Assembly (NCBI RefSeq): GCF_025449215.1
Contig: NZ_CP104900.1
Location: 744,001 to 808,000, forward strand
From: Shewanella seohaensis
GTDB taxonomy: Bacteria; Pseudomonadota; Gammaproteobacteria; Enterobacterales; Shewanellaceae
Reading direction: 5' to 3'
Length of the DNA stretch: 64,000 bases
Shown here: positions 25,421-27,958 of the stretch, in pieces
Position numbering within the stretch: position 1 is the first letter of the stretch
Layout of the letters: each line of letters begins with the position of its first letter
Notes under the pieces: generated by a model
The model's database searches: none
What the model saw: only the letters and a program-made list of their open reading frames with translations
Told to the model about the DNA's origin: nothing
Translations under genes and position numbers: made by a program

Positions 25421-25438
25421 CCTGAACTCAGGTTAATT
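25415..25438. terminator. Bidirectional 24-bp palindrome joining two stop codons
   Basis: AATTAACCTGA and TCAGGTTAATT form an 11-bp perfect stem around AC. It contains the stop codons of both convergent genes. Confidence 0.6.
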
Positions 25439-26573
25439 AATGCGCTTGAGGCTTTTGCTGCCGCAGATAAGTTGGGATCTGTAAGTTTTCTAAATCGAAC
25501 TTGGATGGTGCAGGATCGGCGATGGATATCGCCTGACGCTTAATAAAATCATGCACATTGATATAGTTGTCATTGACTGCCTGGATAGGATCTTGAATTT
25601 CCGGCGGCGTGAATCCAATCCCTGTTGCTATCACCATGATTTCGAGCTCCGATTCGAGGTTAGGGTCGATAGTTAGCCCAATAATCACAAGGGCATCCCG
25701 CGGTAATTGCTCATGTACAGTTGCGCCGATTTGGTTGTATTGACTGAGCTCTATCGTGTCTTTTGCGACAACACTGACAATTGCCGCTTGTGCTTGATTG
25801 AGTTCAATATTATCGAGCAAAGGATGTTGCATGGCGCGTTTCACCGCCGAGATAAGCTCCTCGTCGCCCTGAAGGCAGCTCACGCCCATTGCGGCGCGAC
25901 CTTGGCGGCTGATGACGGAAATAAAGTCATTTAAATCAATATTGATAAGCCCAGCTTGGCTGATGGTATTGGCAAGCCCCAGTAACACATCCTGTAAAAT
26001 TTTATTGCTCTCTTTGAATGCATTAAGCAGGGTCACTTTGGCGCCAAGCACCTCGGCAAGCTTATCGTTGGGGAGAACGATAACGGCATTGGCGCTCTCC
26101 AATAATTCCTGCAGTCCGGCTTCGGCATTGGCCTTTCTGTGCTGGCCCTCAAAGCTAAAAGGCATGGTCACAACGGCGATAACAGGTTTGGTTAACTCTC
26201 GAGCGAGCTTTGCCACCTGCGGTAGCGCGCCCGTACCTGTGCCGCCGCCTAATCCCGCGGTGAGAAACACGATATCGCTATGCTGCATTTGTTCAGTTAA
26301 TGCCTGCGCCGACTCAATCGCTGCTGCGCAGCCGACATCGGGCTTGGCGCCTGCGCCTAAGCCTTTCGTCGTTTGTGGACCAATTTGAATACGGTAATGG
26401 CTGCTGGTGGCTGCCATGGCTTGGGCATCGGTATTGACGGAAATTAATTCTACGCTGGATGGCAGATTGACTTGGCTGAGTTGATTAATGGTATTACAAC
26501 CACAACCTCCGACGCCGAATACCGTTAATTTGGGCATGGCGCCAGTGGCAGTTTCATGAATTAGTTCAAACAT
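25437..26573 (-). CDS. Second FtsZ (FtsZ paralogue)
   Basis: Starting at MFELIHETATGAMPKLTV (26573) this is a complete 378-residue FtsZ/tubulin GTPase. Visible parts: nucleotide loop FGVGGCGCN (~19-27), tubulin signature GLGGGTGTGALP (~108-118), the catalytic T7 loop NIDLND (N211, D213, D216; NxDxxD kept) and a C-terminal peptide LQIPTYLRQQ that resembles the FtsA/ZipA-binding tail (DIPAFLRKQ) of cell-division FtsZ. The linker before the tail is only about 45 residues. It is not in a division gene cluster, so it is presumably additional to the housekeeping ftsZ. GAGAG lies before the ATG. The frame is open upstream into the WYL gene (see that entry). Confidence 0.85.
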   Translation of the reverse strand: MFELIHETATGAMPKLTVFGVGGCGCNTINQLSQVNLPSSVELISVNTDAQAMAATSSHYRIQIGPQTTKGLGAGAKPDVGCAAAIESAQALTEQMQHSDIVFLTAGLGGGTGTGALPQVAKLARELTKPVIAVVTMPFSFEGQHRKANAEAGLQELLESANAVIVLPNDKLAEVLGAKVTLLNAFKESNKILQDVLLGLANTISQAGLINIDLNDFISVISRQGRAAMGVSCLQGDEELISAVKRAMQHPLLDNIELNQAQAAIVSVVAKDTIELSQYNQIGATVHEQLPRDALVIIGLTIDPNLESELEIMVIATGIGFTPPEIQDPIQAVNDNYINVHDFIKRQAISIADPAPSKFDLENLQIPTYLRQQKPQAH

Positions 26574-26655
26574 AGCGACTCTCACGGTTAGCAATGGTAA
26601 AGCAAGACTAACCTTGAGTTGCGACTCAGCTTGTCGCATCAATGCGATAAACGGT

Positions 26656-27650
26656 TTAACGGTATTTCGCCGCCATTTTTTGGCTGAGGGCGGCAAAGTG
26701 CTCCCCAGTTTTATCGGTGCCAGCACCTCCACGGTATCGGCCATTTCCCACAATGCTGCGCGCAGTTTTGGGGTGTCAGTGACTTCTGCTACCACATAAA
26801 AGCGGCCATCCTCGCGTAATTGCATGGTCTGGTTATCGCTAAACTTGGCTTCGCGCATGATAAAACTCGCCTTATCGGAGAGCAGCAGTTCGAGACATAT
26901 CTTCTCGCCACGCGAGCCCTGTGCGGTTTTATTGATATCAAAATCGGCACTCTTAACCGCCGCGCTGGGCAATAGCTGCGCGTTAAGCAGTAAGCCTATC
27001 GGTTTATGGTGGCGGCGCTTATCAAAGCTGCCAATGGTAAAAGCGAGTAGCGCCACCCCATCGCGAATTAAAATTCCTTGTGGATTGATAGGGTTGTAAT
27101 GCAGCCAATGCATTTTACCATTGATCCATTTTTTGATATCGCAGCGAATTTGTTTCTTATCCAAAATCGCTTGCTGTATGACCTCTAAGGACTGAGGTTG
27201 GTGCTGCGGCAGGATAAAGGGGTAAGGCTCGGGAAGCTGTGCGACTCGGCACGCCCAATAGAGCCAAGGGTTTTCGGGATCGCTAGCCAGCACCTGATCG
27301 GCCCTGTCGAAGTAGGGCTGTAGTTGTTGCAAGCTTTGTGGTGGCATCAACTGACTCGCACTGCGCTTTAAGGTGGTTAAAGCCAGCGCCATATGTTGGT
27401 CCATTAGCTCTAGGTTCAACCCGCGCCAGCAGGACTCAATCGACCAACCATAGGGCTTGTTTCTATCATCGAGGCGTAAGCCAAAGGTGCCCATTTCATA
27501 CATGGCCTTTAAATCCCTTTGCACCGAACGCTTGCTGATATCCTGCGTGCGGTTTGCCAGCCGCTCGACTAATTCATTCACCGAGATTTTACGTGGCGCC
27601 CGCGGGATTAAACTCAGTAGTGTCACTTGGCGTTGAAAGTTAGGTTGCAT
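26656..27650 (-). CDS. WYL-domain transcriptional regulator, probably frameshifted at its end
   Basis: Starts MQPNFQRQVTLLSLIPRAPR. N-terminal winged helix (VNELVERLANRTQDISKRSV, QRDLKAMYEMG), a WYL ligand-binding domain (~150-250) whose W-Y-L residues look degenerate (ALLAF), and the WCX C-terminal part (LRAALWEMADTVEVLAP). As given, the frame runs on without a stop into the FtsZ at 26573, making a 737-residue fusion. One extra A in the A6 run at 26676-26681 gives an end of AKKMAAKYR then TAA at 26656, a typical WYL ending, and a 331-residue protein of normal size. I prefer two separate genes. It is likely to control its downstream ftsZ partner. Confidence 0.72.
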
Positions 27651-27958
27651 GGTGAATTTTTCGATGTTTAGCGGAATAACAGTATATTAATTAAAGGTTG
27701 CGACAAAAGCTGTCGCAGGTTTTGTATGGTGTGTGAAAATCTCTCAAAATCCTGACTGACTCACCTTATGTGAGTAATCGCTTTGCCTCGTCTTTTGATT
27801 TCGGGAGGCCATCAACAATAGGTTGTCGGCATATTTTGCAAGCCGCGTGATTTATACTGAGTGGACTGCGTAATGTCTCCTTACTATTAAATCTATTAAC
27901 AATTTCTCTATGTCCGTGTAGTTTAGATAGCTTATAAAAACAACAATAGGTTATCGCT

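Follow-up and report, generated by a model that had tools for sequence, protein, structure and literature searches.

A second FtsZ paired with a DriD-class WYL regulator and shared inverted repeats in Shewanella

Introduction

To our knowledge, the known bacterial division checkpoints operate through small inhibitors (SulA, SidA, and DidA). Among regulators of the WYL class, DriD of Caulobacter and PafBC of actinobacteria are described as DNA-damage activators. According to the published description, DriD is activated by ssDNA and recognizes the site ATACGAC(X)7GTCGTAT over the -35 region, at a fixed distance to the -10 region (PMC12340889), and its target DidA, reported to be a small membrane protein acting on FtsN, halts division without SOS (PMC4211646). 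The DriD regulon is described as scattered. PafBC is reported as a heterodimer of two proteins controlling most mycobacterial DNA-damage genes (PMC5656591, PMC11804915), with promoters of the form tTGTCRgtg-8 nt-TannnT (PMC5656591). Additional FtsZ proteins have also been described. FtsZl1 and FtsZl2 are homologues thought to be active outside standard division, the FtsZl1 operons containing genes for vWA and membrane proteins as far as that report describes them (PMC2875224), and in archaea and chloroplasts two FtsZs share one compartment, with no dedicated WYL regulator mentioned in the accounts drawn on here.

Here we describe a two-gene module, consisting of a WYL-type regulator gene (wyl) and a gene for a second FtsZ (ftsZ2), in a 64,000-nucleotide stretch of the Shewanella seohaensis genome (the window, meaning the whole stretch analyzed). 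As far as the DriD-DidA system is described, the module shares with it a DriD-class regulator and an operator with a 7-base gap, putative in our case, over the -35 region (PMC4211646, PMC12340889). The target in that system acts on division, and we propose the same role for FtsZ2. The module differs in that its target is an FtsZ paralogue encoded beside the regulator (PMC4211646) and in that two promoters at one locus take the place of a scattered regulon. With PafBC, as reported, it shares the WYL activator class and a TTGTC element 8 nt from TAnnnT, and the heterodimeric composition and broad control of PafBC set that system apart from the regulator studied here (PMC5656591, PMC11804915). 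FtsZ2 is, like FtsZl1 and FtsZl2, a homologue that may be active outside standard division, but it is a near-canonical FtsZ accompanied by a WYL protein (PMC2875224). A search of the open-access literature, with subscription papers and bioRxiv outside its scope, found no report of a WYL-paired second FtsZ.

Results

FtsZ2 and the housekeeping FtsZ

The 378-residue FtsZ that the original prediction had placed at 25437..26573 was confirmed. The gene runs from 26573 to 25437 on the minus strand, begins with its own ATG at 26573, and consists of 378 codons and a stop. Its product scored 301.7 bits against the curated TIGR00065 model (cut-off, 295.2) and matched Pfam Tubulin (PF00091) and FtsZ_C (PF12327), both above cut-off. 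The sequence features on which the prediction rested, namely the GGGTGTG motif, the catalytic T7 loop NxDxxD (NIDLND; 25926..25943, minus strand), and the C-terminal peptide LQIPTYLRQQ (25455..25484, minus strand), are all present, and in a motif alignment the first two are invariant in the 26 FtsZ2 sequences aligned (of 32 members). In a structure search with an AlphaFold2 model of FtsZ2 (m12c03e6e7300; mean pLDDT 77, with residues 1-11 and 323-378 below 50), all 50 matches listed were FtsZ, 46 of them with a target TM-score of at least 0.90. The omega values of ftsZ2 (0.06-0.22, 14 pairs) indicate purifying selection. FtsZ2 is thus like the housekeeping FtsZ (TIGR00065) in fold, GTP-binding motifs, T7 loop, and C-terminal peptide, and unlike it in lying outside the dcw cluster, in having its own WYL regulator and repeats, and in forming a separate group in the trees.

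The two proteins also differ in the T1 nucleotide loop, which is GGCGC in FtsZ2 and GGGGG in the housekeeping FtsZ. Cys24 and Cys26 in this loop (GGCGCN; 26496..26504, minus strand) are invariant in the 26 aligned FtsZ2 sequences. Among rows picked from those of a 72-protein FtsZ tree, both positions are cysteine in 21/21 FtsZ2 and 11/11 related rows and glycine in 35/35 housekeeping rows. The GCGC(N/S) form occurred in 50 of the 235 FtsZ matches with a readable T1 loop, and 49 of these 50 proteins ranked within the FtsZ2 group at the top of the match ranking, the remaining one being P0217.

An FtsZ-type C-terminal peptide binds FtsA and ZipA in E. coli. The LQIPTYLRQQ peptide of FtsZ2 is of this type (family consensus, LDIPTYTR), and such binding is predicted for it. 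The linker preceding it is short and carries a further motif, YINVHDFIKRQA (25530..25565, minus strand; family N[LIV]HDF[LI]), which is conserved in relatives, with N339, D342, and F343 conserved in at least 90% of the 26 FtsZ2 sequences; the motif was not seen in the six housekeeping FtsZ tails compared. In our reading, it may loosely resemble a second copy of the terminal peptide. The terminal peptide is eroded in some FtsZ2 lineages (e.g., L054, L056, L058, and L062) and missing from the FtsZ protein of G193 and from P0163. Despite such erosion, L052, L054, L058, and L062 keep the linker motif, intact or in variant form.

The original prediction required a separate housekeeping ftsZ, and this gene was found on the same chromosome in the division cluster, between ftsA and lpxC (G000:C1:968701-969885); the tail of its product is LDIPAFLRKQAD. 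In the 72-protein tree, 32 GGCGC(N/S) rows were split from the 40 others with 100/100 support, and FtsZ2 and the housekeeping FtsZ fell on opposite sides of this branch, as expected for paralogues. FtsZ2 of Shewanella and Paraferrimonas (21 rows) formed one clade in this tree (100/96). A further tree, with 56 rows, separated 26 housekeeping-type rows (100/100) from a set comprising the GGCGC forms, the L236-L241 forms with GGCGG, and P0166. Counted among the 26 are P0220, whose T1 loop is also GGCGG, and two second FtsZs found in G441. As drawn, the root of the 72-protein tree placed P0166, also a GGCGG form, with the housekeeping FtsZs, and in the 56-row tree this protein grouped with the second FtsZs of family f25; the WYL-linked FtsZ rows of the latter tree were not a single clade (6 changes). 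The 72-row tree represented 19 of the other 31 intact Shewanella modules, the 56-row tree 12, and the WYL tree described below 13. For all three trees, the program warned that long branches meet at some joins, which may be false; the split between the FtsZ2 group and the housekeeping FtsZs is among these joins, and the root is not inferred. The FtsZ2 branches are much longer than those of housekeeping copies from the same genomes, and many residues fixed in the housekeeping FtsZs were never found among the 21 FtsZ2 rows. On these comparisons, we consider that FtsZ2 is an ancient paralogue of the housekeeping FtsZ; both FtsZ trees rule out a recent duplicate. Apart from this, a third kind of FtsZ (L165), 60% identical to the housekeeping FtsZ over 327 residues, was seen in a genome lacking the module (G045).

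The WYL regulator

The wyl gene (26700..27650, minus strand) encodes a protein whose residues 1-317 align with relatives, and its omega values (0.03-0.12 in the 13 of 14 pairs with finite dS; one pair had no finite dS) indicate purifying selection. Pfam WYL was not matched in the window regulator, and WCX gave a sub-threshold match only. A search of a PDB set with the WYL sequence of a single relative found neither DriD nor PafBC, that is, no direct sequence similarity of the kind expected of a DriD orthologue, and a profile including distant kin found both among solved structures. Structural matches of the predicted model of a relative ranked DriD first, followed by PafBC and then by CapW and BrxR. 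Foldseek aligned this model with DriD chains over 336-347 columns (best E, 2.7e-13), with a loose superposition (TM 0.46-0.50), and the model has the wHTH, three-helix bundle, WYL, and WCX architecture of the DriD class. Because the similarity appears by profile and model and not by single sequence, we call the regulator DriD-class, not DriD; the diverged WYL domain and the lack of a DriD match from a single sequence also imply that its ligand may differ. PADLOC, applied to eight window proteins, matched the regulator to a general WYL model and a neighboring methyltransferase, marginally, to mad2 (16.3 bits).

A single uninterrupted frame of 737 codons (27650 to 25437) spans wyl and ftsZ2 in the genome of the window. 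Compared with four near relatives, whose frames are separate, one base is deleted close to the end of wyl, and this deletion joins the frames. All of the other 31 intact loci have wyl and ftsZ2 as distinct genes. We take the fused frame, as read from the sequence, to be a strain oddity or a sequencing error and no part of the finding. A WYL-FtsZ fusion protein was rejected on these grounds, as was frameshifting at an A-run in the fused stretch. Relatives with 54% identity first appeared fused, and stops between the two genes were found when the loci were read. A search with the full-length protein gave no protein longer than 572 residues among the 120 matches listed (mostly FtsZ), which argues that there is no fused relative.

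Inverted repeats upstream of both genes

A DriD-type inverted repeat, TGCGWC-N7-GTCGCA or a near variant, is located 5' of both module genes. Site 1, upstream of wyl, was found in all 32 intact Shewanella module loci, and site 2, upstream of ftsZ2, in 31/32 (the union of two scans, which detected 28 and 30 loci); the locus without site 2 is L063, in which the genes overlap. In the window, putative operator 1, TGCGACAGCTTTTGTCGCA, occupies 27699..27717 (minus strand), and a candidate -10 box, TAATAT (27684..27689, minus strand), starts 8 nt past its 9-mer TTGTCGCAA. Putative operator 2, TGCGACAAGCTGAGTCGCA, occupies 26620..26638 (minus strand) and is followed at the same spacing by a candidate -10 box, TAGTCT (26605..26610, minus strand). 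A TAnnnT sequence starts 8 nt past the TGTCG-bearing 9-mer in 32/32 first sites and in 30/30 second sites scored. The putative sites show the arrangement of the DriD class, with CGAC-N7-GTCG over the -35 region at a fixed distance to the -10 region.

The placement of the repeat is nearly exclusive to the module. The exact form TGCGWCA-N5-TGTCGCA occurred at the module in 26 of the 32 intact-module genomes, with an off-module occurrence in one (G077), and in the remaining six the corresponding position holds a variant differing by one or two bases. A search of 24 other Shewanella genomes found the exact repeat only in G082, which has a decayed module, and in G032; a reversed control pattern gave one match in 58 genomes. 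The repeat matched twice in the window and not at all in 100 shuffles, and the flanked form had no match elsewhere in 579 kb of module loci. When 11 genomes were searched with a wider form, the window's genome showed three sites, two of them within the module. The bare core CGWC-N7-GWCG had 14 further matches in the 579 kb and 3 in the window (2.1 expected), and is therefore uninformative alone, being at near chance frequency.

The repeat common to wyl and ftsZ2 ties both genes to one regulator. Judged by comparison across loci, the regulatory link of the WYL protein to wyl and ftsZ2 is well supported, and the putative sites are very probably bound by the WYL protein of the module. The term "inducible" in the original prediction is likewise well supported by the shared repeat and the conserved pairing. 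LexA control of the module was rejected, as no match to CTGTN8ACAG was found within the window.

We consider that the WYL protein probably activates rather than represses. The opposite sign, in which it would repress wyl and ftsZ2 and keep FtsZ2 off in unstressed cells, agrees with the sites overlapping the -35 region and preceding both genes, a classical repressor layout; it is nevertheless unlikely, as all 62 Shewanella sites scored stand at the same distance from the -10 box, which is expected of an activator contacting RNA polymerase, and the best structural matches, DriD and PafBC, are activators.

Distribution of the module in Shewanella

An intact, adjacent wyl-ftsZ2 pair is present in 32 of 129 Shewanella genomes. 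In all 32, wyl lies directly 5' of ftsZ2 on the same strand; where the two are not fused (31 modules), the distance between them ranges from -13 to 82 bases. The module is decayed in two genomes (G082 and G095), and neither an intact nor a decayed module is present in the other 95, among which G112 gave only a weak match, to another WYL protein. The module is missing or decayed in most Shewanella genomes and hence dispensable. In a set of loci that overlaps the 129 genomes and adds nothing to the counts (L095-L117), all 23 Shewanella loci with a full-length WYL relative, including those of strain ANA-3, S. xiamenensis, S. decolorationis, S. colwelliana, S. fidelis, and S. aquimarina, have a GGCGCN FtsZ directly downstream on the same strand. 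In S. morhuae, a relic (L118:5936-6504) retains site 1, while its regulator frame is disrupted and a deletion extends into the part encoding the FtsZ tail.

The genes neighboring the module vary across the 18-kb surroundings, with no third gene constant, and the module as cargo of one mobile element was rejected on this basis. Of the two neighbors named in the original prediction, the WYL gene proved to be a conserved partner, but the methyltransferase gene did not: it is convergent, occurs in 8/33 loci, all from the window's own clade, and looks incidental. SulA is present in 127/129 Shewanella genomes, meaning that a damage checkpoint exists without the module, which would be an additional layer; the module as a SulA substitute was rejected for the same reason.

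Relatives beyond Shewanella

In a partial sample of 394 genomes of the order, 44 had at least two FtsZ matches by a hand count that may include split genes. Second-FtsZ loci were examined at seven loci and in fifteen genomes, with the surroundings taken for part of them. The second FtsZ gene has an adjacent WYL gene in a genus of family f25 (4/4 loci, L236-L239) and in two genera of family f6 (L141, L240, and L241), and has one about 1.5 kb away in G193 (L147). No WYL gene was found within about 6-7 kb of second FtsZs of the FtsZ2 group in L142-L146, or in the stretch examined around those of G441 (L242 and L243). Paraferrimonas has relatives of both the WYL protein and FtsZ2, encoded on contigs of equal length (P0005 and P0265). 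In a 51-protein WYL tree, 22 of the 23 FtsZ-linked regulators formed one clade (98/95), and that of G193 lay elsewhere.

Core sites are located 5' of ftsZ2 in L141, of wyl in L240, and of both genes in L147 and in L241, where wyl and ftsZ2 are arranged tail to tail with a repeat core before each. The -10 spacing is kept at four of these six core sites. No core site was found upstream of the WYL gene in L141 or before ftsZ in L236-L239, and a variant, TGCGWC-N7-GTCACA, was seen by eye before wyl in the latter four loci. The bare core precedes 5 of 13 related non-Shewanella WYL genes (L119, L121, L123, L125, and L126), as would be expected of self-regulation; the single cores far upstream of the WYL gene in L123 and L125 may be due to chance.

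Several further observations were made at these loci. In L236-L239, a hairpin followed by a T run, possibly a terminator or an attenuator, lies between the WYL and FtsZ genes (4/4). In L119 and L121 (Desulfuromonadales), two core copies, 68 bases apart, precede the WYL genes, and the GGGTGTG motif was not found in either locus. L147 has a third CGAC-N7-GTCG core before a small gene (2150-2545) between the WYL and FtsZ genes, and the WYL protein of this genome (G193) groups near a Marinomonas WYL protein (L124) in the WYL tree. About 5 kb downstream of a Marinomonas atlantica WYL gene (L127), there is an FtsZ-like frame with the T1 sequence GGCGCGCS, cut by the end of the locus. Tandem FtsZ gene pairs within about 2 kb were seen in five genomes of family f3 (L216-L220, L228-L231, and L233).

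Discussion

We tentatively propose, as an explanation that may prove right as a whole, that the module works as a dedicated DriD-like switch: an FtsZ paralogue is induced and alters the Z-ring. The WYL protein would be a transcription factor of the DriD class, would serve only its own gene and ftsZ2, and would bind the TGCGWC-N7-GTCGCA sites covering the -35 region of both promoters. A ligand at the WYL domain, most likely ssDNA or another nucleic acid that signals damage, would lead to activation of both genes. FtsZ2 would then accumulate, bind GTP, and join or compete with the filaments of the housekeeping FtsZ, while its C-terminal peptide and extra linker motif would engage or titrate FtsA, ZipA, and other partners. 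Division would be delayed or remodeled until the signal is gone. Sequence comparison shows the paralogy, the intact FtsZ motifs, the purifying selection, the gene pairing, and the paired repeats with their fixed -10 spacing and near-exclusive placement; what the signal is, whether regulation is positive, and how division is affected we infer. Damage or ssDNA is, in our estimate, an even call as the signal; it is somewhat more likely than not that FtsZ2 acts on the Z-ring, and inhibitory and supportive actions appear evenly balanced. The original prediction spoke of a division modulator, perhaps under damage or stress control, and by analogy both ideas would be compatible with the C-terminal tail and with a regulator and a repeat that resemble those of DriD. 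The present analysis adds the paired repeats and the DriD-class regulator to that prediction, and these make the idea testable.

Other roles can be considered for FtsZ2. It may be induced as a back-up ring, keeping or resuming division when the housekeeping FtsZ is blocked, e.g., by SulA or MinC, a role that it could fill because its interface and T1 residues differ. The intact GTPase motifs and tail, the many housekeeping-fixed residues that FtsZ2 lacks, and the near universality of SulA in Shewanella agree with such a ring, but the short linker, the changed T1 loop, the much longer branches, and the erosion of the tail in some lineages argue against it, and we regard it as quite unlikely. 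FtsZ2 may instead be a cytoskeletal GTPase for a task other than division, such as segregation, shape, or envelope remodeling, in line with its sporadic occurrence outside dcw and with the absence of the tail peptide from the G193 protein and P0163; this is improbable, since most of the Shewanella FtsZ2 tails compared keep the FtsZ-type peptide. A phage-defense function is improbable. In this reading, infection would be sensed by the WYL protein, as it may be by BrxR or CapW, and FtsZ2 would be a decoy for phage FtsZ inhibitors or a division block. The DriD and PafBC structural matches are stronger than those to CapW and BrxR, and PADLOC gave only the general WYL and marginal mad2 matches for the eight window proteins, despite the patchy presence of the module in many settings, the reported co-localization of WYL regulators with defense islands (PMC9122601), and those weaker matches themselves.

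A bolder form of the induced-FtsZ2 proposal is that the module represents an ancient, SOS-independent division checkpoint found across several families of gammaproteobacteria. A DriD-like switch that senses nucleic acid would turn on a modified FtsZ, tuned by the two T1 cysteines and bearing two partner-binding motifs in its tail, and this FtsZ would poison or re-program the Z-ring, so that a cytoskeletal protein would itself be the effector under checkpoint control. We regard this form as rather doubtful.

That many Shewanella, and also some of their marine relatives, carry a regulator-adjacent FtsZ2 with likely shared sites suggests that division is under a control that is inducible and probably triggered by stress. 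A damage-type regulator owning an FtsZ paralogue would, if true, be a different solution from the checkpoints based on small inhibitors, and it would make division control through the mixing of filament subunits testable. The WYL regulator thereby gains one clear target and a predicted operator, and the proposal accounts for the presence of a second FtsZ of this kind in a quarter of the sampled Shewanella genomes.
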